Below are positions 2,349 through 61,206 of a DNA stretch of 64,000 nt, piece after piece (position 1 is the stretch's first letter; each line of letters starts with the position of its first letter). The notes under the pieces were generated by a model. The model worked only from the letters and a program-made list of their open reading frames with translations, was not told where the DNA came from and did not search any database. Made by a program: the position numbers and the translations under genes. The stretch comes from Pseudanabaena galeata CCNP1313 (GTDB taxonomy: Bacteria; Cyanobacteriota; Cyanobacteriia; Pseudanabaenales; Pseudanabaenaceae), in NCBI RefSeq assembly GCF_029910235.1, contig NZ_CP112874.1, forward strand, positions 620,001 to 684,000, read 5' to 3'.

Positions 2349-3439
2349 ATTTGTCGCTGCCGATCGCTCAGACAGTCTTGTTCTAGCATTTGATCGAAAT
2401 TACGAATTACTTGTTTACAACGCTTTATATAAGCAGATACCCATGCTTGAATTTGTTGAATTTGCTCTGGGGTACAGGCGATCGCTGCTTGTTTTGGATA
2501 GGATATTTGCCCACTGCGATCAACTTCAAATTCGGCTAACCAAGATGAAGCAGGACGAGTAGATTTCCAATAATTTGTAACTACGACTTTACCTAAATAT
2601 TGGGTTGTAAAGTGACTTAGTTTATTTAAAGCAGATAAAAGTTCATCTAACTTATACTCTTGCGGGTCAGTTTTCGCTGATACTGACTTAGTAGGACTAT
2701 CAGTAACTTTTGTCGGGTTATTGTTAACTCCAGCCCTATTCGTAGGTGTTGAGACAGAAGATGTGGCAGCAGATGTAGGAGGTGTTTGGGGCTTATTTGG
2801 GTTTGATTGAGACTGCCCAGTAGTACTTGCAGTTGAGCTAGCTCTTAAGTTTGTATTGCTAGCGGTCGTACTTGCCCTTGTATTAGAGATAGCTTTGTGC
2901 TGTTTGTCGGTTTGGGTTCTTGCGTTGACTGTGCTAGGAATATCCTCTGACTTTGGATGGACAGTAGGGTTAGTAAAGCTCTGTATTGTTGATGACTCTT
3001 GCCCTGTTGCTTGAATATTTGCATTGGCTTCACTAGCCTTCCAATTTGAGCTTGGCAAAGAATGCTGAGTTACCGAACCTAATAAGAGCTTAAAGTATGC
3101 GACTGTGTTGTATGTATCTGTTTCGATCAAATATTTGATTTTAGTAATGCCCCGTCTATAGTCAACCACTTTAAGGTCACTATCTGTAAGTACTAGTAGT
3201 ACTAGCCCATGCGTTAACTTGTAAATAAAAACAACATGACCAGAAAAGTGAAACTCAAAGGACTCAAATCCTTCTGGTACATTCTCAACAACTTGCAGTA
3301 CTCCTTGACCTAATGCTTGCTTAGTCCTTATTTCTACGGCATTCAAGCCGTAGAAATAAGGACGCATACGGCGGTTTGTGAGGGCAATCCCCACAACTCC
3401 TGCTGAATGCAAAAAATCTTGAATAACCTCCCGACTCAT
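2339..3439 (-). CDS. Conserved two-domain protein with Ser/Thr/Asn-rich linker
   Basis: A 366-residue protein of unknown function. Residues 1-125 form a compact beta-rich domain ([41 protein letters not shown]) that recalls roadblock/LC7-type folds, but I cannot confirm that. Residues about 130-265 are low complexity (S, T, N, P, Q). Residues 265-366 form a second domain with [16 protein letters not shown] and a helical end. It is transcribed toward the ferredoxin cluster and is separated by only 19 bp from the divergent rbcR gene. The disordered linker between two ordered domains suggests a scaffold or adaptor, which is inference only. Confidence 0.6.
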
Positions 3440-7351: not shown

Positions 7352-7837
7352 TTTGTTAGATATTGGCGATCGCGCTTCATCGTTCATCAAAAAGCGAGTG
7401 ATCTTCTGCTCATATCCTGAGCCATCGGGAAACTCAACCATTAGTACAGGATTTTTAATATTTTCAGATGGGATCTGGATCATGTATACATAATCACCAT
7501 TATGAAATTCAAAATAATTTCCTTGGTTCGGATTGTAAGTTCTTGCAGTAACTCTTACTCCCTTAGTACCATTTTTATTCACACTGCGATAATACCGAGG
7601 TTGAGAAATATCTCGAATATCCGCACAAACATATAGCCCAAAGTCTTTAGTTTCTGCATAGGCAAGAATTCCCCCAGTACCTTCACAGGTTTTGTCATTG
7701 ATTAGCTCATCGGTTAAGCCAGTAGTTAAATTCTCGGCGATCGCCTTGTTACCATCGATCCCAGCATATACGGACAGAGACAAGCTCACCAGCAGAGTCG
7801 TCAAGGATTTTTGGAAAATAGATTTAATTAAACGCAT
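7349..7837 (-). CDS. Hypothetical secreted protein
   Basis: A 162-residue protein with a typical signal peptide: basic start (MRLIKSIFQK), hydrophobic core (TTLLVSLSLSVYA) and a probable cleavage site near NKAIA-EN. The mature part contains two cysteines (KTCEGTG and LYVCADI) that could pair in the periplasm, plus beta-rich segments (VRVTARTYN, YVYMIQIPSENI). I do not recognise a family; similar small secreted proteins are common in cyanobacteria. It stands alone with a strong terminator overlapping its stop. Export is well supported, function unknown. Confidence 0.7.
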   Translation of the reverse strand: MRLIKSIFQKSLTTLLVSLSLSVYAGIDGNKAIAENLTTGLTDELINDKTCEGTGGILAYAETKDFGLYVCADIRDISQPRYYRSVNKNGTKGVRVTARTYNPNQGNYFEFHNGDYVYMIQIPSENIKNPVLMVEFPDGSGYEQKITRFLMNDEARSPISNK

Positions 7838-7944
7838 CTCATAACCTCATACTTTTGCAATTTGCAAGTGCAGAGATGCTCGTTGCCCAGATATTACTGT
7901 AACGATACTGAAAACCTTTGTAATCAGCTACTTTGCCTAATCCC

Positions 7945-8115
7945 AAAACACAAAATGGCATAGCCATTTTGTGTTTTATAACTTTAGTCAGTCTAAAAAC
8001 CAACAGAGGGTTGCGGCGCAAAGCGCCGCAACCCTCTGTTGGTGGCTATAGCTAGTCTTGCTTCTCAACTCCCGATCAGAATGAAGGCGCATTGCGCCTT
8101 CATTCTGATCGGGAG
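7945..8115. repeat. Three consecutive hairpins in the 320-bp gap before ubiA
   Basis: The gap 7838-8157 holds no gene. It contains a CACAAAATGGC-ATA-GCCATTTTGTG hairpin (7949-7976), a 23-bp-arm hairpin centred on GGCGCAAAGCGCC (about 7997-8044) and a hairpin centred on GGCGCATTGCGCC (8069-8113). All have near-perfect arms; the first is followed by a T-rich stretch and may end the upstream transcript. Confidence 0.7.
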
Positions 8116-8157
8116 AAATTGCTATAGTTAATCCCAAAGACTTGACATGCATTCACT

Positions 8158-9054
8158 ATGACCACGAGCCTCACTAACAACGAATCAACATTTCAAAAGA
8201 TCGTGCGTCTTTTGCGTTGGCACAAACCCGCAGGAAGATTAATTTTGATGTTGCCTGCACTGTGGGCAACAGTAGCAGCAGCCAAAACTCAACACCAATT
8301 ACCACCCCTTGATTTATTGGGTGTAGTGATTCTTGGCAGTTTAGCGACCAGTGCCGCAGGCTGTGTGATTAATGATCTCTGGGATCGCGATATTGATCCA
8401 CAAGTCGATCGCACTAAAACCCGTCCTCTAGCCGAACGCTCTCTGTCAATCCAAGTAGGAATTGCAGTTTTACTAGTTGCGGGACTATGTGCGTTTTTAT
8501 TGTCAACCTACCTCAATCCCCTAAGCTTTGGGCTGTGCTTTGCCGCCGTACCTGTAATTGCTATTTATCCTGCTTGCAAGCGCTTTTTCCCAGTACCACA
8601 ACTGGTTTTATCGATCGCTTGGGGTTTTGCGGTACTAATTCCTTGGAGTGCAGTTACTGGTGGGCTTGATCGTTATGCTTGGGAGCTATGGACAGCCGTG
8701 ATCGCTTGGACAATGGGCTTTGACACAATCTATGCCATGAGCGATCGCACCGACGATCTTAAGGTTGGGGTTAAGTCTAGCGCCCTCTTTTTTGGAAGAT
8801 ATGTAACATTTGCGATCTCCATATTTTTAGCGATCGCCCTTGGATGCTTGATTTGGTTAGGTTGGGAGATTCAACTTGGTTACGCACACTACTTTGCTTG
8901 CTTGACGGCAGGAGTAATATGGATATGGCAATGTAACAGGCTGAGCCAAACTGAAATTCCTAGCGAGTTATATCAAAAAGCCTTTGGTCAAAATGTCTGG
9001 ATCGGCTTTATTATCCTTGCGGGAATGCTACCTTCAGCTTTAAGCATCGGTTAA
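8158..9054 (+). CDS. ubiA: 4-hydroxybenzoate polyprenyltransferase (UbiA family, plastoquinone synthesis)
   Basis: A 298-residue integral membrane prenyltransferase with about eight to nine hydrophobic segments. Both Asp-rich magnesium-diphosphate motifs are intact: NDLWDRDID (residues about 79-87) and the second, DRTDDLKVGVKS (about 196-207). In cyanobacteria this enzyme prenylates 4-hydroxybenzoate on the way to plastoquinone (slr0926 in Synechocystis). Length and motif spacing are normal. The related chlorophyll synthase ChlG and tocopherol prenyltransferases have different flanking residues, so the UbiA call is favoured. It is apparently monocistronic. Confidence 0.88.
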   Translation: MTTSLTNNESTFQKIVRLLRWHKPAGRLILMLPALWATVAAAKTQHQLPPLDLLGVVILGSLATSAAGCVINDLWDRDIDPQVDRTKTRPLAERSLSIQVGIAVLLVAGLCAFLLSTYLNPLSFGLCFAAVPVIAIYPACKRFFPVPQLVLSIAWGFAVLIPWSAVTGGLDRYAWELWTAVIAWTMGFDTIYAMSDRTDDLKVGVKSSALFFGRYVTFAISIFLAIALGCLIWLGWEIQLGYAHYFACLTAGVIWIWQCNRLSQTEIPSELYQKAFGQNVWIGFIILAGMLPSALSIG

Positions 9055-52791: not shown

Positions 52792-53433
52792 ATGAGTACA
52801 GTTAATAACGAGATACGTCTGCTTCTAAATTTGTGGGGTTTGGGGAATGGTCAAGGGCTAGTCAAGAGGAGTGAGCTTTTGCGTCCTTATAAGGGTAAGG
52901 AGAAGAAGGCGGTGTATGAGGTTAGTTTGCAGGATCTTGCTGAGCGTGGGGCGATCGCTTTGACGATGGATAAGAAAGTGCCGAAGTTGTCGCTGACGGA
53001 TGCGGGTTTGCAACAGTTGGCGACGGGTTTGCTGTCGGCGGATTTTGGGTTTGAGGGGCAGTTGGTGGGCAGTCGGTTGGCGAATGCGGCTTTGAGATGG
53101 TTTAGGCAATATCAAGGTGTTGGTGTGAATGCTGAGGCGATCGCGCCTAAGATCTCGACTTACGATGAGTTTAAGGTTGTGGCTTTAGAAACTTACGATC
53201 AGCTTAATCGTGATTACAACTATGACAATCTTGTGCCAATTTATCGGATTAGACGGGTGATCGGTGAACGTGTAACGCGATCGCAGTTTAACGACTGGAT
53301 GCTAGAGCTTCAGTCAAATGATGTCTTACAACTTCAAGGTGGAGGCGTAGAAGATGATGCACAAGATAAGCTCGAAGACTCAATTTTGACTAAAGTAAGT
53401 GGACTACGTTGCTATGCCAAAAAGATTAGCTAA
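52792..53433 (+). CDS. Winged-helix-like first protein of a putative defence operon
   Basis: A 213-residue protein. Residues 1-75 look like a winged helix (NEIRLLLNLWGLGNGQGLVK, VSLQDLAERGAIALTMDKKV, LSLTDAGLQQLATGLL). Residues 135-213 (YDNLVPIYRIRRVIGERVTR, RSQFNDWMLELQSNDVLQLQ) form a second winged-helix-like domain. No catalytic motif is visible. It precedes an ATPase and a nuclease by 52 bp and is in the same direction. It may recognise DNA, or serve as adaptor or regulator for the ATPase-nuclease pair. The family is unknown to me. Confidence 0.7.
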   Translation: MSTVNNEIRLLLNLWGLGNGQGLVKRSELLRPYKGKEKKAVYEVSLQDLAERGAIALTMDKKVPKLSLTDAGLQQLATGLLSADFGFEGQLVGSRLANAALRWFRQYQGVGVNAEAIAPKISTYDEFKVVALETYDQLNRDYNYDNLVPIYRIRRVIGERVTRSQFNDWMLELQSNDVLQLQGGGVEDDAQDKLEDSILTKVSGLRCYAKKIS

Positions 53434-53485
53434 CTTCGCGAACTTTTCTTAATATTATCATAAAAAATCAAGTTAATAGAATCCT

Positions 53486-55501
53486 ATGTCTGGTTCAGAA
53501 GATATCCATGAAGCTATAAAAAATAGCAATCCTTTCTCGATCAAATTTGTTGATCAACACCACATTTGGGGAGCAAGTTTTCCCGATGTCCCAGAAATTA
53601 ATGCTCATATATCCGATGCAGTTTTTAATGCTATTGATCAAGTCTCAAAAAATGAGATTCCATCCATCGGTATCATTATTTCTGGGGAAAAGGGCTTAGG
53701 GAAAACTCAAATCATCAGCCGTATTCGTCATCGCCTTCAAACTGAAGGGAGAGCATTTTTTGTTTACATGGGCAACTATGGCGATTTAGACTCTATCAAA
53801 TCCGAGTTTTTACAAACTTTAACTTCTAGCCTTAAGAGGATTGGAGTTGAAGGAGTTATGCAATGGCAAGAACTTGCAGCGAATATGTTTTTTACTGCTA
53901 AAGGCGATCGCCCTTGTACTCCGAAAGAACTAGCTAGTGGTAGATTTGCCTCAATCGTTAACCACAATCCTAAAACTCCTGAGAATTGGGCTAATGGGAT
54001 ATGTGCAAGAAAACCTGAGCTAAACAATCCCTATTTGGTCAAAGCAATTTTATGGACACTTTCAGAAAATCATGCACCTTATGCAATTAGTTGGTTGGCT
54101 GGACAAGAGCTAACTCAAGCAAAGGCTGATGAGCTAGGCTTGCCAAATAATTCACAGAAAACTGAATTAGCCACTTTCAAGACAACCTGTGAACTTTTAT
54201 CTTTAATTGGGAACTACAGCAATCTAGTATTCTGTTTTGATGAACTAGATGATCCAAGCAACAACACTAGGGGATTTACTAGAGCGCAAGTTGTCGCAGC
54301 ACTGGCAAAAGATTTACGCAATGCTATTAGTAAATGTGTTCTGTTGATGGCTATGTATCCAGCAACTTTGAGAGATGAGATCAAGTTAGCACAAATGCAA
54401 GGTGCATCTTATGATCGCACGGCTGACAAGGTTTTAGAGCTTGATTATCTTAATCCTGATACATCAGTTTTACTTGTGCGTAAATGGCTAGAAGATTTTT
54501 ACACTAGCAAAGAACTTACGCCACCACATCCACTTTATCCTTTTGATGAGTCTGAAATTAGAGAGATTGGGAAAGAGCGTCCAACTGCTAGAGCTATTCT
54601 AAAATGGTGTTCTGAAAACTGGAATATAAACAATCAAAGTAAGAACTCGTCTGGTTTTGAAAGAAAAAAAGATAGTAATAACAGTACTTCCATAGAACAG
54701 CTAATTGATCCGATAAAGTTAGTAGATCAATCTGTCAAAGTGGCATTTGACAACGAATACAAGTCAATAGAAGATTCTATTGATGAATACATGGAAAATA
54801 ATGATGTAATTGGGAGAGCTTTAGAATTTGCTTGCACTAGTTTAATTGATACAGAGATTGAAGGTGTTACCATCAAGAAAGTTGAATGGATTGATGACAA
54901 AGTTAAGAAATCTGATCGAGGTTATTTGCACGTTAGAATTACAGCACAAGAGTCAGGTAAACTTATCAAAATTGGTGTTGCAGTAATTCAACAATCAGTT
55001 GGTCGTAATATTGGGACAACGTTAAAAAGACTGAATGATTACCAAAAGTTTGATATCACTAGGGGATGTCTAGTTAGATCAAAACAGATTGGTAAAAATG
55101 CTAACGCAGCACAGACTGAGGTAATAATTTTACTAAATCACCGTGGTGGGGAATGGGTTGTTTTAAAGAAGGAAGAAATTCAGCCTCTTTTAGCTATTTA
55201 TCTGGTTTCTAAGAAAGTAAATGACTATGATTTAACGTTAGAAAAGATCAGCAACTTTAGCGTAGAGACTAATCTTATTTTTAACAATCCTCTAATAAGG
55301 GAAATATTAAGCGATCCATCGGGAGAAGAACCACCAAATTTGCTGTGTGAGGATTTTAGCTATTTCCCAAGTCTTCCTGTTTATAGTGTAAGCACATCTG
55401 AGATTTTTCAAGAACGTAGAGATGAGCTACGGTCTAAGCTTCAAAATTTTCAAGAGCAAAATAACTCAGTATCCACTGATTCGCAGAACGTATCACTGTA
55501 A
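53486..55501 (+). CDS. AAA-type ATPase of the three-gene module
   Basis: A 671-residue protein. The N-terminal ATPase domain has Walker A GEKGLGKT (residues 67-74) and Walker B LVFCFDELDD (247-256); a sensor-like LLMAMYPATLRDEI and a helical lid ending RPTARAILKWCSENW follow, an architecture like Orc/Cdc6- and STAND-type AAA proteins. Residues about 430-600 contain a second, beta-rich domain (YLHVRITAQESGKLIKIGVA, GGEWVVLKKEEI) of unknown fold. Its stop overlaps the nuclease start (TAATG). Probably the energy-dependent sensor or loader of the system. I do not match it to a named defence family. Confidence 0.78.
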   Translation: MSGSEDIHEAIKNSNPFSIKFVDQHHIWGASFPDVPEINAHISDAVFNAIDQVSKNEIPSIGIIISGEKGLGKTQIISRIRHRLQTEGRAFFVYMGNYGDLDSIKSEFLQTLTSSLKRIGVEGVMQWQELAANMFFTAKGDRPCTPKELASGRFASIVNHNPKTPENWANGICARKPELNNPYLVKAILWTLSENHAPYAISWLAGQELTQAKADELGLPNNSQKTELATFKTTCELLSLIGNYSNLVFCFDELDDPSNNTRGFTRAQVVAALAKDLRNAISKCVLLMAMYPATLRDEIKLAQMQGASYDRTADKVLELDYLNPDTSVLLVRKWLEDFYTSKELTPPHPLYPFDESEIREIGKERPTARAILKWCSENWNINNQSKNSSGFERKKDSNNSTSIEQLIDPIKLVDQSVKVAFDNEYKSIEDSIDEYMENNDVIGRALEFACTSLIDTEIEGVTIKKVEWIDDKVKKSDRGYLHVRITAQESGKLIKIGVAVIQQSVGRNIGTTLKRLNDYQKFDITRGCLVRSKQIGKNANAAQTEVIILLNHRGGEWVVLKKEEIQPLLAIYLVSKKVNDYDLTLEKISNFSVETNLIFNNPLIREILSDPSGEEPPNLLCEDFSYFPSLPVYSVSTSEIFQERRDELRSKLQNFQEQNNSVSTDSQNVSL

Positions 55502-56811
55502 TGATCATCCAGTCTATTGTTATTCCCAATGCCTTACGCCTAGATTCCCAGACTATTGATAGTCTAATGAAAGGAGATATTATTGCAGCAATACCGCGCA
55601 CTTTTACCAATGCTGGAAGGACTTTTGCACTTTATCCAGATCAACCAGATGTAGAAACTATCACAATCTCAGCTTGGGCGAGATGTGAACAATGCGATAT
55701 AGTCGATAATTCCAAACCTTTAGATATTATTTCGCATTACACCGCTATATCTACTCAATGCTTGCAGCAGATAATTGCAGAATACGAATCATTTTTTCTT
55801 ATCTATTTACGAGTTTATAGATTATCCAAACCAGTTACAATTCCTGCTAGATCTCAAGGTCAATATGTAGCTTTACCTGATCGATTAAAAGTTGATGACT
55901 CGTCACCAGTATTAAGCGATCCAGATTTTTCAAGAATCAAACAGAAGCTAGAAAATTTGGAGCCACCAGAACCATTAGATATCCAAATTCAGAGATTACT
56001 TGATCAAGCAGCATTGCAACACAATCTACAATTATCTAAAGAACTTGACTGGATAGAGAAAATTGCAAAAACTGGCAATTCTAGCGATGGTCATGAATTT
56101 GAAAAACTGGTTAGAAAAAGCTTTATTCATCTTGGTTTTAGTAATTCCAATACTAATCCTAAAGCTAGTCTCGATCCTGAAGCAACAGGCGGTGCAGGAG
56201 GTATCGATCTATGTTGCGAATATCCATATCCTGTAGTTGGAGAGTGTAAAGCAAGTGCTAATCAAAAAATTCCTACAGAAGTATGTAGCCAGCTTACCTA
56301 TCTTGGTCAAGCACATTTCCCCAACCACTACGAAAAAGCAGTCAAAATTATAATTGCCGCAGGTTCGCTCAATCATCATTCTAATCCAGTCGCCATAGGA
56401 AATAAAATGAACGTTATCAGACCAGAAACCTTAGAAGAGCTAGTTAAACTTAAACTCACACATTCAGGCTCGATTAATTTACAAGATTTAAAATTGAGCT
56501 TAGAAAGTGAACCGTTTGGCGAAGACTCTAACTCTAAAATTTTAGGTTTTATTGAAAAAGCAAAACTTGAAATCAAACTGCGATCGCATATTGTCAATCT
56601 TGTAAAAAATAATCACGAAGAAAAAGTTGGAGTAGAAACTCTTTTCGGTGCTTATCCATATTCAAATCCACCTAAACCGATCCGTGAACGTGAAGAACTA
56701 AAAGATATACTAATCGAGCTTTCTTCACCATTGGCGGGATATTTGGGAAGGGTTAAGGGCAATGGAGAAACAGGCGATCGCTTTTACTACTTACGAGACT
56801 TACCGACTTAA
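55501..56811 (+). CDS. PD-(D/E)XK (Mrr-like) nuclease of the three-gene module
   Basis: A 436-residue protein. A beta-rich N-terminal domain (1-130) precedes a restriction-endonuclease core: HEFEKLVRKSFIHLGF (Glu199/201), GGAGGIDLCC (Asp236), VVGECKA (Glu248, Lys250) and CSQLTYLG (Gln264), the Mrr-type E / D-ExK / Q pattern. So it probably cuts DNA with divalent metal. The last 24 residues (GYLGRVKGNGETGDRFYYLR...) are the element that recurs five times downstream. It starts one base before the ATPase stop ends, so the two are translationally coupled. Confidence 0.8.
   Translation: MIIQSIVIPNALRLDSQTIDSLMKGDIIAAIPRTFTNAGRTFALYPDQPDVETITISAWARCEQCDIVDNSKPLDIISHYTAISTQCLQQIIAEYESFFLIYLRVYRLSKPVTIPARSQGQYVALPDRLKVDDSSPVLSDPDFSRIKQKLENLEPPEPLDIQIQRLLDQAALQHNLQLSKELDWIEKIAKTGNSSDGHEFEKLVRKSFIHLGFSNSNTNPKASLDPEATGGAGGIDLCCEYPYPVVGECKASANQKIPTEVCSQLTYLGQAHFPNHYEKAVKIIIAAGSLNHHSNPVAIGNKMNVIRPETLEELVKLKLTHSGSINLQDLKLSLESEPFGEDSNSKILGFIEKAKLEIKLRSHIVNLVKNNHEEKVGVETLFGAYPYSNPPKPIREREELKDILIELSSPLAGYLGRVKGNGETGDRFYYLRDLPT
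56737..56811 (+). repeat. 3'-end repeat, copy 1 (inside the nuclease gene)
   Basis: The final 75 bases of the nuclease gene, from GGATATTTGGGAAGGG to the stop. Reads GYLGRVKGNG...GDRFYYLRDLPT. Contains GGCGATCGCTTTTACTAC. Reference for copies 2-6. Confidence 0.85.
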
Positions 56812-56832
56812 AATACTACTCAATATTTACAC

Positions 56833-57156
56833 ATGCCTATGATTGAAGATATTTAGACCAAAATTGCCAACGAACAATATGAGTTTTCTAAACATGCCGT
56901 CGATCAATCCATTATTCGCCAAATTCGTTTGCACGAGATCGTAGAAGCGATCGCTAACGGTCAAATCATCGAAGACTATCCCAACGACAAATACGCTCCT
57001 AGCTGCCTCATTTGTGGCATAACTCAAACTGGTAGAGCAATTCATATCCAAACCAGCTATCCTAGCCGCGCTTTGGTTAAAATCATCACAGTATATGAAC
57101 CCGATCCAAATAAATGGAATGACAACTTCACCGTAAGGAGAACAAACAATGAATAA
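56833..57156 (+). pseudogene. DUF4258-type toxin with in-frame amber codon
   Basis: From ATG 56833 or 56839 the frame reads MIEDI, then TAG (56854-56856), then TKIANEQYEFSKHAVDQSII and IIEDYPNDKYAPSCLI to VKIITVYEPDPNKW. This is the full DUF4258 toxin-like family as in the intact paralogue at 59097-59405, which covers the same N-terminus without a stop. Either a nonsense mutation inactivates it, or translation starts at a later codon such as 56929, which would lose the conserved SKHA segment. It overlaps its antitoxin by eight bases. Confidence 0.75.
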
Positions 57157-57370
57157 TGATCAAGAGCAACTTGTCGAAAAGCGCGTAACCTACTCATTAG
57201 AACTAAACGGCAAATTCATCCTGATTGAGAACGTTCCTGCTCGCATAAATGAAGAAACAGGAGAACAATTCTTTGCGCCATCAACTGTGATGTTGCTACA
57301 ACAAATTATTTTGGACGGTCAAGAACCAAAGCGTGTAATTCAGACACCCGTTTATAGCTACGCCGCCTAA
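57149..57370 (+). CDS. YgiT-type antitoxin without zinc cysteines
   Basis: A 73-residue protein overlapping the DUF4258 gene by eight bases. The core GKFILIENVPARINEETGEQ and the FFAPSTVMLLQQIILDGQEP stretch parallels the YgiT/MqsA-N-like antitoxin at 59407-59637 (GKPVFVENIPSKVCNQCGEQ, ETTEQIRVMLHSKSQP), but both CxxC pairs are gone. In the family the zinc ribbon is not always present. It should neutralise the DUF4258 toxin. Cassette A of the array. Confidence 0.7.
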   Translation: MNNDQEQLVEKRVTYSLELNGKFILIENVPARINEETGEQFFAPSTVMLLQQIILDGQEPKRVIQTPVYSYAA

Positions 57371-57388
57371 TTCTAGAACCTGATTTTT

Positions 57389-57475
57389 TCACCATTGGCG
57401 GGATATTTGGGAAGAATTAGGAGTGATGGAGAAAAAGGCGATCGCTTTTACTACTTGAGAGATTTACCGATTTGA
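57389..57475 (+). repeat. 3'-end repeat, copy 2
   Basis: Begins TTCACCATTGGCGGGATATT, so it includes 12 more bases of the nuclease gene than other copies. Reads in frame SPLAGYLGRIRSDGEKGDRF then YYLRDLPI and a stop. It closes cassette A. Confidence 0.82.
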
Positions 57476-57596
57476 CTTGTCAATGTAACGATTAAGCAAG
57501 TAAATACGCGATCGCAACTCCTAATAATTTTCATTTGCTGAAAATGTTAAAATTGTCCACACTAGCCTCCCAACACAGACTAACTGGAGTAACACT

Positions 57597-57824
57597 ATGT
57601 TATTGCAAGAACTTAAAAATCAGGTGCGTAAATTACCTGTAAGCGATCGCCTAGAACTTGTGCGCTCTATCATTGACTCGATTCAAGAAACTCCAATCTC
57701 AACACCAAAGCGATCGCAAGCAATCAGCCGCATGAAAGGTTTACTCAAAACTAGCCAGCCATCCCCAACCGATGCCGAAGTCGAATCAATGTTAGAACAA
57801 CATCGCATGGAAAAATATCTCTAA
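57597..57824 (+). CDS. Antitoxin of a PIN-domain toxin
   Basis: A 75-residue protein: LKNQVRKLPVSDRLELVRSI and an SIQET segment form helices, followed by a variable tail (SRMKGLLKTSQPSPTDAEVE and EQHRMEKYL). The LPVSDRLELVRSII motif is widespread among cyanobacterial addiction-module antitoxins. Its stop overlaps the PIN gene start (TAATG), which secures pairing with that toxin. Upstream, a possible promoter lies in the 120 bp behind repeat copy 2. Cassette B. Confidence 0.8.
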   Translation: MLLQELKNQVRKLPVSDRLELVRSIIDSIQETPISTPKRSQAISRMKGLLKTSQPSPTDAEVESMLEQHRMEKYL

Positions 57825-58234
57825 TGAAAGTTCTTATTGATACAAATGTTCTACTAGATTTTTTGTTAGAAAGAGAACCTTTTAAAAAAGATGCAGAAGA
57901 ACTGTTTGCCGCGATCATCTCTGGACAAATTATTGGCTATGTAACCGCTACAACCCTGACCGATATTTTCTACATCGCGCGTAAACATACCCGTAACCTA
58001 GAACTTGCAAGAGAAGCAGTTTCCAGTACTTTAGACACTATGACTATTTGTCCAATCAATCGTAATGTCTTAGAGGCAGCATTTGCATCTGGCTTAACAG
58101 ATTTTGAAGATGCTGTCCAGATTTATAGTGCGATCGCTCAAAATTTAGACGCAATAGTAACCCGTGATGCTAAAGGATTTGCGAGTTCAACTATCCCTGT
58201 ATACTCTGTTCAAGAATTACTAAAGAGATTGTGA
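57824..58234 (+). CDS. PIN-domain toxin (VapC-like RNase)
   Basis: A 136-residue PIN domain. The acidic active-site set is visible as LIDTNVLLDFLLERE (Asp6), TDIFY, DFEDAVQIYSA and VTRDAKGF. PIN toxins cleave RNA. The full length and intact motifs suggest activity. It overlaps its antitoxin gene by one base. The 3' end QELLKRL is followed by 13 bp and then repeat copy 3. Confidence 0.9.
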   Translation: MKVLIDTNVLLDFLLEREPFKKDAEELFAAIISGQIIGYVTATTLTDIFYIARKHTRNLELAREAVSSTLDTMTICPINRNVLEAAFASGLTDFEDAVQIYSAIAQNLDAIVTRDAKGFASSTIPVYSVQELLKRL

Positions 58235-58247
58235 AAAGCTAAAGACA

Positions 58248-58316
58248 GGATATTTGGGAAGAGTTGAAAGTGATGGGAGAAAAGGCGATCGCTTTTACTA
58301 CGAGACTTACCGATAG
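58248..58316 (+). repeat. 3'-end repeat, copy 3 (frame broken)
   Basis: GGATATTTGGGAAGAGTTG... to CGAGACTTACCGATAG. A short deletion between TACTAC and GAGAC shifts the frame, so this copy no longer encodes the LRDLP end. Confidence 0.8.
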
Positions 58317-58331
58317 AAAAGGAGACATAAC

Positions 58332-58658
58332 ATGACACTCAAAGAACTACAACCACAACTACTATCCCTAACCCCCGAAGAAAAATCTCAAGCAATCCAA
58401 ATCCTAGTCCAAAGCCTCAGCAATACATGGCAAGGCATCGAAAAAAATCCAAGAGTCATGGGTGGTGACGCTTGCATTCGTCAAACCCGCATACCCGTAT
58501 GGCTGCTAGTAAGCCTCCAACACCAAGGCGCAAGCGAAGCCTACATCCTCGAAGACTATCCCACCCTCTCCGCAACAGACCTAGCAAACGCATGGCGCTA
58601 CGCCGAAACCCATCCTGATGAAATAGAAGCAGCCCTTCATAGGCAAGAGGCAGCTTAA
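58332..58658 (+). CDS. DUF433 antitoxin (VapB45-like)
   Basis: A 108-residue protein. The DUF433 core is NPRVMGGDACIRQTRIPVWL and the following ILEDYPTLSATDLANAWRYA. The N-terminal 30 residues (LSLTPEEKSQAIQILVQSLS) are the usual cyanobacterial extension. DUF433 proteins act as antitoxins paired with DUF5615 PIN-like toxins, which is just what follows one base downstream. Complete. Cassette C. Confidence 0.88.
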   Translation: MTLKELQPQLLSLTPEEKSQAIQILVQSLSNTWQGIEKNPRVMGGDACIRQTRIPVWLLVSLQHQGASEAYILEDYPTLSATDLANAWRYAETHPDEIEAALHRQEAA

Positions 58659-58659
58659 C

Positions 58660-59000
58660 ATGGCACGACTCTATGCCGATGAGCAATTTCCCAAAATTGT
58701 CGTCAAACTACTACGCGAGCTAGGACATGATATTTTAACAGTCCAAGAAGCAGGCAAAGCCAACAAAGAATCCCTGATGAAGATGTCCTAGCCTTTGCGA
58801 TAAGTGATAACCGCACCGTATTAACAATTAATCGCAGTGACTTTATCCGACTGCATAACCTACACCCTATCCATACAGGTATAATCGTCTGCACAGAAGA
58901 CATCAACAGACAAAGACAAGCCACCCAAATTCATGAAGCAATTAACAATACAGTAGATTTAACCAACCAATTAATTCGCATAAATCGTCCTAGTAAATAG
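58660..59000 (+). pseudogene. DUF5615 PIN-like toxin, frameshifted
   Basis: Starts ATG 58660: MARLYADEQFPKIVVKLLRE, then LGHDILTVQEAGKAN, after which the frame ends at a TAG. In the next frame the protein continues as RIPDEDVLAFAISDNRTVLT, then IHTGIIVCTEDINRQRQATQ to NRPSK. Loss of a single C in AACCAAAGA at 58761-58768 explains it. Toxin lost while the antitoxin stays intact. Confidence 0.82.
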
Positions 59001-59020
59001 AGATCTATTCTCCATGAGTG

Positions 59021-59093
59021 GGATATTTGGGAAGAGTTAGGGGAGATGGAGAAAATGGCGATCGCTTTTACTATTTGAGAGACTTACCGATAG
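59021..59093 (+). repeat. 3'-end repeat, copy 4
   Basis: GGATATTTGGGAAGAGTTAG... reads GYLGRVRGDGENGDRFYYLR, DLPI in frame, and then runs on past the former stop position without a stop. The next toxin start ATG lies three bases later. Confidence 0.82.
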
Positions 59094-59096
59094 AAA

Positions 59097-59405
59097 ATGA
59101 AAACCATAACTGAGATTCGCTCACAACTTCAAAGGGGAGACTTTGAATTTAGCCGTCATGCCCTCAAACGTGCAGTGGAAAGAAATATTAGCGAACAGGA
59201 GATTATGCAAATAGCTGAAAATGCGAGCATTATTGAGGAATACCCAGATGATAAATACTCACCAAGTTGTTTGATTTTTGGAATCACTAAAACCCATAGA
59301 CCACTTCACTTACAAGTATCAATGCAAGAATCAGCGATCGTAAAAATCATTACAATATATGAACCAGATCCCAATCAATGGATTCAATTTACAAGGAGAA
59401 AATAA
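59097..59405 (+). CDS. DUF4258-type toxin
   Basis: A 102-residue protein: RSQLQRGDFEFSRHALKRAV with SRHA, then IIEEYPDDKYSPSCLIFG, and VKIITIYEPDPNQW at the end. Intact, in contrast with its paralogue at 56833. Family members pair with a zinc-ribbon YgiT antitoxin, which follows one base after the stop codon. Suspected RNA-targeting toxin of the RelE-like fold (family knowledge, not shown here). Cassette D. Confidence 0.85.
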   Translation: MKTITEIRSQLQRGDFEFSRHALKRAVERNISEQEIMQIAENASIIEEYPDDKYSPSCLIFGITKTHRPLHLQVSMQESAIVKIITIYEPDPNQWIQFTRRK

Positions 59406-59406
59406 A

Positions 59407-59637
59407 ATGAATAAATGTCATGTATGCGGTTCAACAGAGTTTTCTCAAGAACTAATTAGCGAAGTTTTTTACATCTCTGGCAAACCTGTATTCGTCGAGA
59501 ATATCCCCTCAAAAGTCTGTAACCAATGTGGTGAGCAAACCTTTAGCCGCGAGACAACAGAGCAGATTCGCGTAATGTTACACAGTAAATCTCAACCAAT
59601 TAGAGCGATCGCAGTTGATGTTTTTTCACTCGCCTAA
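59407..59637 (+). CDS. YgiT-type zinc-ribbon antitoxin
   Basis: A 76-residue protein, start ATG 59407 one base behind the toxin stop. Zinc ligands CHVCG and CNQCG are intact; EVFYISGKPVFVENIPSK lies between, and helix REXTTEQIRVMLHSK-type follows. MqsA-N-like antitoxin. The stop codon overlaps the first base of repeat copy 5, so gene end and repeat are directly joined. Confidence 0.87.
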   Translation: MNKCHVCGSTEFSQELISEVFYISGKPVFVENIPSKVCNQCGEQTFSRETTEQIRVMLHSKSQPIRAIAVDVFSLA

Positions 59638-59711
59638 GATATTTGGGAAGAGTAGAAGTGGATGGTAGAAAATGCGATCGCTTTTACTACCTGCGAGACT
59701 TACCGCAATAA
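59637..59711 (+). repeat. 3'-end repeat, copy 5
   Basis: AGATATTTGGGAAGAGTAG... reads RYLGRVEVDGRKCDRFYYLR, then DLPQ and a TAA stop. In frame over its length. Confidence 0.82.
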
Positions 59712-59770
59712 TTACTTCTATTTTCTTAAATGCTAAACTGTAAACACTTAAAATAACTCTAGCAATCACA

Positions 59771-60043
59771 ATGAATACATCCAATGATATATCTATTGTC
59801 GATAATCCCTCTGCGATACCAGTAACGGAAATACAGAATCAACTGAGTGAATCAATTAAACAGCTATCTCCAGAAAGATTAAAAGTAGTTGCCGACTTTG
59901 CCGCATTCTTAGCAAATGCTGAAAGCGAAGCAGCAACCCAAGAACTATTATCAATTTCAGGACTATTAGAACGTATCAAACAGAATCAAACAACACCTAA
60001 AAGCCAATACGTAAATTGGAGAACAGTACGTTCTGATGTATGA
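59771..60043 (+). CDS. Antitoxin of a RelE-type pair
   Basis: A 90-residue protein with a helical core (LSESIKQLSPERLKVVADFA and AFLANAESEAATQELL). It overlaps the RelE-like toxin gene by eight bases, which sets its role. The PERLKVVADFAAFL motif is common to cyanobacterial antitoxins of this class. Cassette E. Confidence 0.82.
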   Translation: MNTSNDISIVDNPSAIPVTEIQNQLSESIKQLSPERLKVVADFAAFLANAESEAATQELLSISGLLERIKQNQTTPKSQYVNWRTVRSDV

Positions 60044-60299
60044 AATTTTACTGCATCCTGATGATCAGAAAGTTTATGCTAAAGCAGATAAAGCTTTAGC
60101 GAAAAAGATTGCTAAATGTTTACAACAATTAGAACAAGATCCGCGATCGCACCCTAACATCAAAGCGCTCAAGGGAGAATATTCAAATTTATATCGCTAT
60201 CGCATTGGCGATTATAGGATTATTTATTCAGTCGAAGATGAAATAGTACAAGTGTTTGTTGTGGCGATCGCTCACCGCAGTAAAGCTTATGAAATATAA
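60036..60299 (+). CDS. RelE/ParE-family toxin
   Basis: An 87-residue RelE fold: HPDDQKVYAKADKALAKKIA, then NIKALKGEYSNLYRYRIGDY and RIIYSVEDE, IAHRSKAYE. The conserved RYRIGDYRIIY strand and C-terminal H-R are intact, so it should be an active ribosome-dependent or gyrase-directed toxin. It overlaps its antitoxin by eight bases. Confidence 0.9.
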   Translation: MYEILLHPDDQKVYAKADKALAKKIAKCLQQLEQDPRSHPNIKALKGEYSNLYRYRIGDYRIIYSVEDEIVQVFVVAIAHRSKAYEI

Positions 60300-60330
60300 G
60301 GTGTCGCTACCTGATTAAGGGAATGAATAG

Positions 60331-60363
60331 GCGATCGCCATTGACGTTTTCTTATTAGCCTAA
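60331..60363 (+). pseudogene. Remnant of a third YgiT antitoxin, 3' end only
   Basis: GCGATCGCCATTGACGTTTT...GCCTAA encodes AIAIDVFLLA and stop, nearly the same as the last ten codons of the YgiT antitoxin at 59607-59637 (AIAVDVFSLA). It is followed by repeat copy 6 with the same junction as at copy 5. Confidence 0.7.
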
Positions 60364-60440
60364 GATATTTGGGAAGAGTTAAGGGTGATGGAGAAAAAGG
60401 CGATCGCTTTTACTACCTGCGAGACTTACCGATAGAATAA
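60363..60440 (+). repeat. 3'-end repeat, copy 6
   Basis: AGATATTTGGGAAGAGTTAA... reads RYLGRVKGDGEKGDRFYYLR, then DLPIE and TAA. Full frame kept. Confidence 0.82.
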
Positions 60441-60465
60441 GAAGACTAAAGCGAAGAGAAACAAC

Positions 60466-60945
60466 ATGGAAAAAGTAATCATCAAAACTAACATCAAACA
60501 ACAAGTCAGTGATTTTCAATACTGGCAACAACAAACACCCCAAAAACGCTTAGAAACCCTCGAACAAATTCGCCAAGAATATCATCAATACAAATACAAT
60601 GCTCAACCAAGACTTCAAAGAATTTATACAATTATTAAAACGACAACCAAGTTAACTACTTAGTCATTGGCGGCTATGCAGTCGCCATACATGGACATCC
60701 ACGATACACCAAAGACATCGATATTTGGATAGAAATCAGCGAAGAAAACTCACAAAAAATAATTACAGCATTAACAGAATTTGGCTTCGGTAGCTTAGGA
60801 CTAACTGCCCAAGACTTTCAAGAACCGCATCAAATCATTCAACTTGGTTATCCACCTAATCGCATTGACTTAATCACCAGTCCAGATGGCATTGACTTTC
60901 AGACCTGTTATGAACAGAACTTTTGCATTATGCAGAATATCTAAT
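60466..60945 (+). pseudogene. Remains of a small helical protein gene fused by deletion to an AbiEii-like nucleotidyltransferase
   Basis: Codons from 60466 read MEKVIIKTNIKQQVSDFQYW to RLQRIYTIIKT, a widespread small cyanobacterial partner protein of about 65 residues. Then the frame shifts, and NQVNYLVIGGYAVAIHG, RYTKDIDIWIEISEEN and SPDGIDFQTCYEQ follow, a nucleotidyltransferase (GG motif and DID metal ligands) lacking its start and C-terminus. A deletion joined the two genes at about 60645. Cassette F, degraded. Confidence 0.7.
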
Positions 60946-61101
60946 TACAGCGCAAAGCGCTGTAACAAATATCCAATAGCCAAAACCATTGAGGAGCAAC
61001 CTACAAAACAACAGCATGGCTATGGTAGTTTGGCTGGACAAATTTTTATGTCAAGTGATTTTGATGAACCATTGGAAGAACTAGAGGAATATATGTAAAA
61101 T
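60945..61101 (+). pseudogene. DUF2281-type antitoxin remnant
   Basis: After a small hairpin (CAGCGC-AAA-GCGCTG, 60952-60966) the frame to 61098 encodes IAKTIEEQPTKQQHGYGSLA and FMSSDFDEPLEELEEYM. DFDEPLE..EYM is the C-terminal motif of DUF2281 antitoxins; the N-terminal half is gone. Confidence 0.65.
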
Positions 61102-61110
61102 GCAATACAG

Positions 61111-61206
61111 CTATAGCCACCTGTGACAAATCAAAACCCAAATAGTGTGAGGCGCCGCGAAGCGCCGCCTCACACTATTTGGGTTTTATGCCCTAACAAG
61201 CTAGAT
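61111..61206. repeat. R1-family MITE closing the cassette array
   Basis: CTATAGCCACCTGTGACAAA, then AAAACCCAAATAGTGTGAGG folding onto its complement around GCGCCGCGAAGCGCCGC, right end TTATGCCCTAACAAGCTAG. Confidence 0.72.

Follow-up and report, generated by a model that had tools for sequence, protein, structure and literature searches.

The 64,000 nucleotides of DNA considered here (hereafter the window) come from the cyanobacterium Pseudanabaena galeata CCNP1313, where they occupy positions 620,001 to 684,000 on the forward strand of contig NZ_CP112874.1, within a genome of 5.84 Mb in six contigs. They contain a three-gene operon (the triad) that encodes a small protein, an AAA+ ATPase and a nuclease, and that is followed by a series of toxin–antitoxin (TA) modules. 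Five further copies of the final ~70 bp of the nuclease gene are interspersed among the TA modules downstream. The locus is probably best understood as an integrase-free cassette array, which was seeded by the 3′ end of the nuclease gene and is shuffled by homologous recombination between the tail repeats.

Repeats of the nuclease gene tail and their cassettes

With the 3′ end of the nuclease gene itself included, the window holds six direct repeats of about 70 bp, all on one strand and with starts 616–847 bp apart. Their first sign was a protein search in which sequences downstream of the nuclease matched only its last 25–50 residues. The preliminary description of this DNA had recorded an adjoining TA array, and the downstream TA genes are indeed real, some of them being broken in the window; that the nuclease-gene tail is repeated between them had been missed. 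Each repeat is centred on the HIP1 palindrome, which lies over the Asp-Arg codons of the conserved tail. The array is laid out as follows.

56737–56811, +, repeat 1: the 3′ end of the nuclease gene, with HIP1 (GCGATCGC) at 56774
56812–57400, +, cassette 1: DUF4258 gene and a partner open reading frame (ORF; 57149–57370)
57401–57475, +, repeat 2: HIP1 at 57438
57476–58247, +, cassette 2: Unstab_antitox-like antitoxin and PIN_3 toxin, with homologues in loci L043 and L039
58248–58318, +, repeat 3: 4-bp deletion, HIP1 at 58285
58319–59020, +, cassette 3: DUF433 gene and DUF5615 PIN-like gene, the latter frame-broken in the window; homologues found
59021–59095, +, repeat 4: HIP1 at 59058
59096–59637, +, cassette 4: DUF4258-like ORF and MqsA/YgiT-like antitoxin
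59638–59711, +, repeat 5: HIP1 at 59674
59712–60363, +, cassette 5: DUF2281-like ORF and ParE toxin, with homologues in L039
60364–60437, +, repeat 6, the last: HIP1 at 60400
60438–61100, +: broken remains of an AbiEii-like nucleotidyltransferase gene, with an intact DUF6036/AbiEii homologue in L039

The DUF433, DUF4258, DUF5615 and DUF2281 families are presumed here to be TA families. In cassette 1 the DUF4258 ORF lacks the N-terminal part that is present in relatives and has a stop codon there instead. Elsewhere in the genome there is one weak 27-bp match to the repeat. Behind the array, at 61133–61187, lies a near-perfect 26-bp inverted repeat with a 3-nt loop, which is terminator-like.

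Across the genus, a sequence-only covariance model found 88 copies of the repeat, spread over 24 of 26 Pseudanabaena genomes; each of these has its copies at a single place, apart from G013 and G018 with two. A single copy only is present in G004, G014 and G015, and none was found in G003 and G009. Most public records that carry the same repeat bear the name Pseudanabaena. Between neighbouring repeats 66 cassettes were counted in 24 loci, of which 56 contain a toxin-family gene and six an antitoxin-type gene only (62 of 66 TA-type), the remaining four being two aspartyl-protease pairs, one Uma2-type gene and one cassette without any of the labelled types. The repeat strand carries 112 of the 120 cassette ORFs of at least 60 amino acids. 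The aspartyl-protease pair, a retropepsin-like gene with a small partner, occupies TA positions in three cyanobacterial families (L059:9476–10281, reverse strand; L220:752–1156 with 528–755; L194:2175–2537 with 2534–2851, reverse strand) and is a candidate for an undescribed TA type.

We take the repeats to derive from the nuclease gene, and not the reverse, because the tail peptide is equally conserved in families that mostly have no further copies of it. Among 61 copies outside nuclease genes, 38 are open in the nuclease frame, eight have a stop codon and 15 have a length that changes the frame. A dispersed mobile repeat, of the miniature inverted-repeat transposable element (MITE) or repetitive extragenic palindromic (REP) kind, that landed both in the nuclease gene and between the TA genes would suit a short, conserved, non-coding repeat with a HIP1 palindrome. 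However, the copies are confined to arrays, families that have no arrays still conserve the tail peptide, and no inverted terminal repeats are reported in the repeat. Such an origin seems very improbable, and it was rejected because copies are not found at many places in the genome. Carriage by phages or plasmids was also rejected: the repeat had no match in PLSDB plasmids or phage records (blastn, E 1e-5, with one 90-bp copy) or in IMG/VR (with an exact pattern that finds 52 of 82 known repeats), searches that diverged copies could escape.

In cassette size, common orientation and TA content the array resembles a chromosomal integron, in which the repeats would be attC sites served by a genomic IntI integrase, and 13 of the 26 genus genomes do have an integron integrase over the cut-off. 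The P. galeata genome, however, has none over the cut-off (best E 2.3e-7), and the repeats are present in 12 of the 13 genus genomes with an integrase and equally in 12 of the 13 without. The RNAalifold consensus of 51 repeats, on the given strand, consists of two pairs at −0.08 kcal/mol with no covariation, and the repeats encode the nuclease tail. The integron was consequently rejected on integrase distribution, fold and coding origin of the repeats, and is scarcely credible here.

Shuffling of cassettes and the HIP1 palindrome

The shuffling of cassettes is seen by comparison of genomes. Among pairs of repeats taken across loci (omitting those between the near-identical L056 and L057), 230 have a common left neighbour only, 202 a common right neighbour only, 28 both and 2704 neither. 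A repeat's linkage to its left flank drops to almost nothing over the first bases of the core, and its linkage to the right flank starts after ...GACTTACCG. Two near-identical arrays include one repeat that differs between them, in the left half alone, although the flanks on either side are identical; this looks like gene conversion.

The array might instead be a passive relic of old TA insertions, with small duplications behind the nuclease, that is inherited and decaying and whose differences in order reflect deletion and old transfer. Many of the cassette genes and repeats of the window are broken and the array is missing in G003 and G009, as would be expected of a relic. Cassettes of the same type (flank identity of at least 96%) nevertheless stand beside different neighbours in different genomes, and core sequence has been exchanged between otherwise identical arrays, so that simple decay is unlikely.

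Three array ends (in G001, G010 and G011) consist of the left half of a repeat, which breaks off precisely at the HIP1 octamer. In G001 the sequence joined to it is the terminal part of a gene taken, by its sequence, to be of the nitrate reductase/formate dehydrogenase type (narB). The argument for HIP1 as a place where arrays end relies on these three only. A wider count gives seven truncated copies of at least 25 bits, one of which starts outside the HIP1 window of the repeat, and proves little because simulation shows that the search is biased towards HIP1. A single crossover point at HIP1 inside the array is weakly supported by core–flank linkage.

Copies of the nuclease tail are also present outside the genus, where 66 distinct nuclease regions were compared (68, two having been taken twice; three have less than 1 kb downstream). 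Six of the 66 have copies of their own tail downstream of the nuclease, clearly so in G306, G218, G207 and G329, which belong to two other families, and weakly in G258 and G252. The four clear cases form smaller arrays; eight of nine copies in them have their first base inside the GATCG site of the tail or no more than about 5 nt from it, and the majority extend past the stop codon. Near or between the copies are HicA/HicB, DUF2281/PemK, ParD/ParE-type, RelE- and HigB-like genes, as well as aspartyl-protease genes with their small partner and ORFs without a match. In Goleter, Phormidium pseudopriestleyi and Laspinema the exact pattern matches nothing but the 3′ end of the nuclease gene itself, and repeats in other cyanobacteria by this route were therefore rejected.

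As a control, 323 other genes in these regions were compared in the same way, of which six have a downstream copy of their own 3′ end. The cases in L170 and L187 are tandem paralogues, and, judged by coordinates, the copies in L190 and L194 lie within 20 bp of the query and that in L225 overlaps the nuclease-tail repeat itself. In L051, a cobN-like gene on the reverse strand has a 78-bp copy of its 3′ end 581 bp downstream, behind a TA-like pair (around 7637–8350; the cobN and TA labels were assigned by eye).

Arrays may be headed by other genes. In three relatives that lack the triad at this place and whose array-head genes were scanned, these are an N6 methylase with Methylase_S (L057), a restriction-modification protein of BsuBI/PstI type (L059) and, below the cut-off, an AAA_23-like protein (L043). 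Since other genes head arrays where the triad is missing, an array can be kept without the triad. This bears upon a dedicated site-specific system, in which the conserved end of the nuclease gene would be a genuine attachment site, and TA cassettes would be inserted by an enzyme that cuts at the HIP1/tail site and that could be the triad itself. Such a system would fit the appearance of own-tail arrays in other families, the position of copy starts at GATCG, the three ends that stop at HIP1 and an ATPase model with equal matches to TnsC and ORC (Z 15.7). Some arrays, however, lie behind other genes and have no adjacent triad, and 60 of the 66 triad regions outside the genus have no copies. Moreover, no transposase or recombinase gene is found in the labelled cassettes and core variation is largely unlinked to both flanks, which together make a dedicated system improbable.

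A number of results weigh against recombination-driven shuffling of a nuclease-seeded array, particularly against a special place for HIP1. Crossovers confined to HIP1 predict clear linkage between core halves and flanks, but the halves are weakly linked (interaction p 0.08–0.11). With more similar flanks, the left core half is linked to the left flank (p 0.0005–0.0025), and the right half is linked to the right flank solely at flank identity of at least 95% (p 0.0015); the permutation behind these values ignores relatedness. At the narB junction codon the full GCGATCGC is present in five of 22 orthologues (the nearest relative, 94% identical, and four more), and the orthologous sites of the G010 and G011 ends are without HIP1. 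The search for truncated copies itself favours truncation at HIP1, with 75% of simulated cuts on the left and 51% on the right falling in the HIP1 window. The codon-position test on copies outside nuclease genes was not significant (p 0.12). One of the 323 control genes, cobN in L051, has a tail copy that flanks a TA-like pair, and for this reason the tail-copy process may not be special to the nuclease. Finally, no recombination product, either a circle or a strain variant, was seen among genomes compared at one per species, some of which, at draft quality, may hide or break arrays.

The three-gene operon and its predicted role

The genes of the operon and the domains of the nuclease are as follows, with the basis of each assignment in brackets.

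52792–53433, +: first gene, small putative winged-helix protein of 213 amino acids (ORF; homologues in the same position in relatives)
53486–55501, +: Orc/Cdc6-, TnsC- and BrxC-like AAA+ ATPase of 671 amino acids (ORF, motifs, AlphaFold2 model)
55501–56811, +: DUF1802 nuclease of 436 amino acids (ORF, Pfam, alignment, model)
about 55516–55908, +: ASCH/PUA-like domain of the nuclease, residues ~6–136 (structure model matches)
about 56041–56544, +: FokI-like PD-(D/E)XK domain of the nuclease, residues ~181–348 (structure model matches)

The preliminary description had reported three forward-strand ORFs in an operon, separated by a 52-bp gap and then a TAATG overlap, and both the ORFs and their tight packing were reproduced. 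It had also proposed conservation of the neighbourhood as a check, and the co-occurrence holds. Of 22 near nuclease loci (in the window and in regions of relatives), 20 carry the three genes, although the ATPase frame is broken in one of the 20 (L031). Of the two incomplete loci, L046 starts within the ATPase at a contig end, and L035 has a nuclease cut by the contig end, a 213-amino-acid ATPase remnant and no first gene upstream. A sample of 388 genomes from the class yielded matches to the nuclease profile in 79, and in 20 distant loci taken from these the order first gene, ATPase, nuclease is found in 20 of 20, with the ATPase split into two ORFs in three (L169, L170 and L186). A remnant of the first gene alone, encoding 114 amino acids, lies beside other genes in G023 (L056:15061–15405, reverse strand) and G004 (L135:1331–1675).

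In sequence-profile searches no PDB chain matches any triad protein well. The first protein has no Pfam match, and its profile search of PDB chains gave chance-level matches (E ≥ 0.23), several of which (eS10, RIO2) we take to be winged helices; a winged helix is plausible for this protein. The ATPase has the intact Walker A (GEKGLGKT) and Walker B (FCFDELD) motifs previously ascribed to it, with G70, G72, K73 and D252 invariant and E253 nearly so in 20 aligned homologues, and a borderline Pfam match to KAP_NTPase. Its AlphaFold2 model (predicted local distance difference test, pLDDT, 79) finds its best Foldseek matches in Cdc6/Orc1. The ORC subunit 7jgr_G aligns over 242 residues (VIA Z 15.7, root-mean-square deviation, rmsd, 4.3), in a tie with TnsC (7mcs_B, VIA Z 15.7), while BrxC (9zll_C) reaches Z 13.9. 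The part beyond residue ~390 is barely covered by structure matches and is without a reliable fold in this model.

The nuclease had been described as having an intact Mrr-type core, and its catalytic E/D/E/K residues are intact: E201, D236, E248 and K250 are invariant in 22 homologues, within FE...GGAGG(I/L)D...ECK. Pfam Mrr_cat scores 13.6 bits, below its cut-off of 21, and DUF1802 scores 62 against 25; the fold is closest to FokI (1fok_A; VIA Z 13.1, rmsd 2.9, 145 aligned). The model has a pLDDT of 84 overall and of less than 50 for tail residues 409–436, where there is no reliable fold. The N-terminal domain resembles ASCH domains (5guq_A: Z 9.3, rmsd 3.5, 124 aligned; 2dp9: Z 9.8), and ASCH chains are matched at E 1.7e-4. 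The nuclease alignment looks modular, L033 and L039 having a common N-terminal part and a different middle, with or without a NTNPKASLDPEATGGAGG insert, as if parts had been exchanged.

PADLOC, consulted in line with an earlier proposal to search defence databases, has no family for two of the triad proteins and gave one match for the ATPase (E 0.019, CARF-AAA-HTH model), which is nothing useful. Section 22 of PMC10853773 sets out a predicted counter-invader system of operons with Orc/Cdc6, an ASCH-restriction endonuclease (ASCH-REase) and a DndG-like winged helix-turn-helix (wHTH) protein. As in that section, the present operon has an Orc/Cdc6-type AAA+ ATPase, a REase domain fused to an ASCH domain and a small, putatively DNA-binding partner. 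The published system also has a DndG-like triple wHTH protein and, in the ATPase, an inactive REase domain and a C-terminal wHTH. The small protein encoded first in the present operon gave chance-level profile matches, and the ATPase beyond residue ~390 is barely covered by structure matches. The operon thus belongs to a kind of system that has been predicted and published before, and the initial suggestion that it may be undescribed no longer stands.

The suggestion of a defence island, like the proposed operon and domain classes, has fared better, the triad being conserved and restriction-modification types heading the array in two of the three scanned relatives that lack the triad there. 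The triad is probably a restriction-like system that cuts foreign, perhaps modified, DNA, as we infer from its parts. An ASCH/PUA-like reader and a PD-(D/E)XK nuclease would be combined in one protein, and the Orc/Cdc6-like AAA+ ATPase and small partner protein would gate or power the nuclease.

Proposed turnover of the array and related systems

We infer the recombination reaction, the role of HIP1 and the function of the array as follows. The unit would be a TA module together with a copy of the nuclease tail, set in tandem behind the nuclease, and units would be gained, lost and reshuffled via recombination between the ~67-bp tail repeats. Recombination between two repeats would free a circle of tail and TA module; alternatively, a circle may form when the HIP1 palindrome of the tail recombines with a HIP1 site beyond a TA module. 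On re-entry at any tail copy, the TA module would come to lie with a direct repeat on either side. The most likely engine is RecA-type homologous recombination, preferred because the repeats are independent of an integrase and without a conserved fold and because arrays persist without the triad, and HIP1 is a possible preferred breakpoint. TA modules may be kept because their loss costs the cell. A role of the triad in turnover of the array is possible. A bolder proposal can be put forward tentatively, namely that the nuclease-gene 3′ end serves cyanobacteria as the attachment site of a cassette system of a new, integrase-free class, in which TA cassettes are captured and shuffled, with HIP1 as the crossover point and the TnsC-like ATPase and nuclease perhaps as the machinery.

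If the array is indeed turned over by recombination between tail repeats, cyanobacteria would have, in addition to integrons, a means of assembling and exchanging small defence genes in which part of a resident defence gene acts as the joint. This would explain the gathering of TA modules in one defence island, link a predicted anti-invader system to TA turnover and provide the abundant, unexplained HIP1 palindrome with a natural, testable recombination substrate. Such an array was not found in the literature, as covered by titles and the beginnings of abstracts, exclusive of preprints outside PMC and subscription journals, and DUF1802 turned up in one paper, which is unrelated to judge by its title.

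Chromosomal integrons are tandem arrays of small, mostly TA cassettes in one orientation, with a repeat of less than 100 bp, at one locus. The present arrays are similar in that TA cassettes of one or two genes stand in tandem and in one orientation at one locus, with a repeat after each. What sets them apart from integrons is the repeat: it consists of the 3′ end of a resident nuclease gene, lacks an attC-like fold and needs no integrase in the genome. In the orphan toxin–immunity arrays of Rhs and contact-dependent inhibition (CDI) systems, cassettes lie beside partial copies of a resident gene and are rearranged by recombination there. The cassettes described here likewise adjoin copies of part of a resident gene, but what is copied is the extreme 3′ end with its stop codon, and the cassettes hold free-standing TA pairs rather than alternative protein ends. 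Section 22 of PMC10853773, on operons that resemble the triad, mentions neither array nor repeats. According to PMC4390886, HIP1 (GCGATCGC) has been linked to site-specific or illegitimate recombination, its function being left open. The same motif may take part in recombination here, where, by contrast, it is set within a longer repeat that derives from a gene and belongs to a natural array of cassettes.

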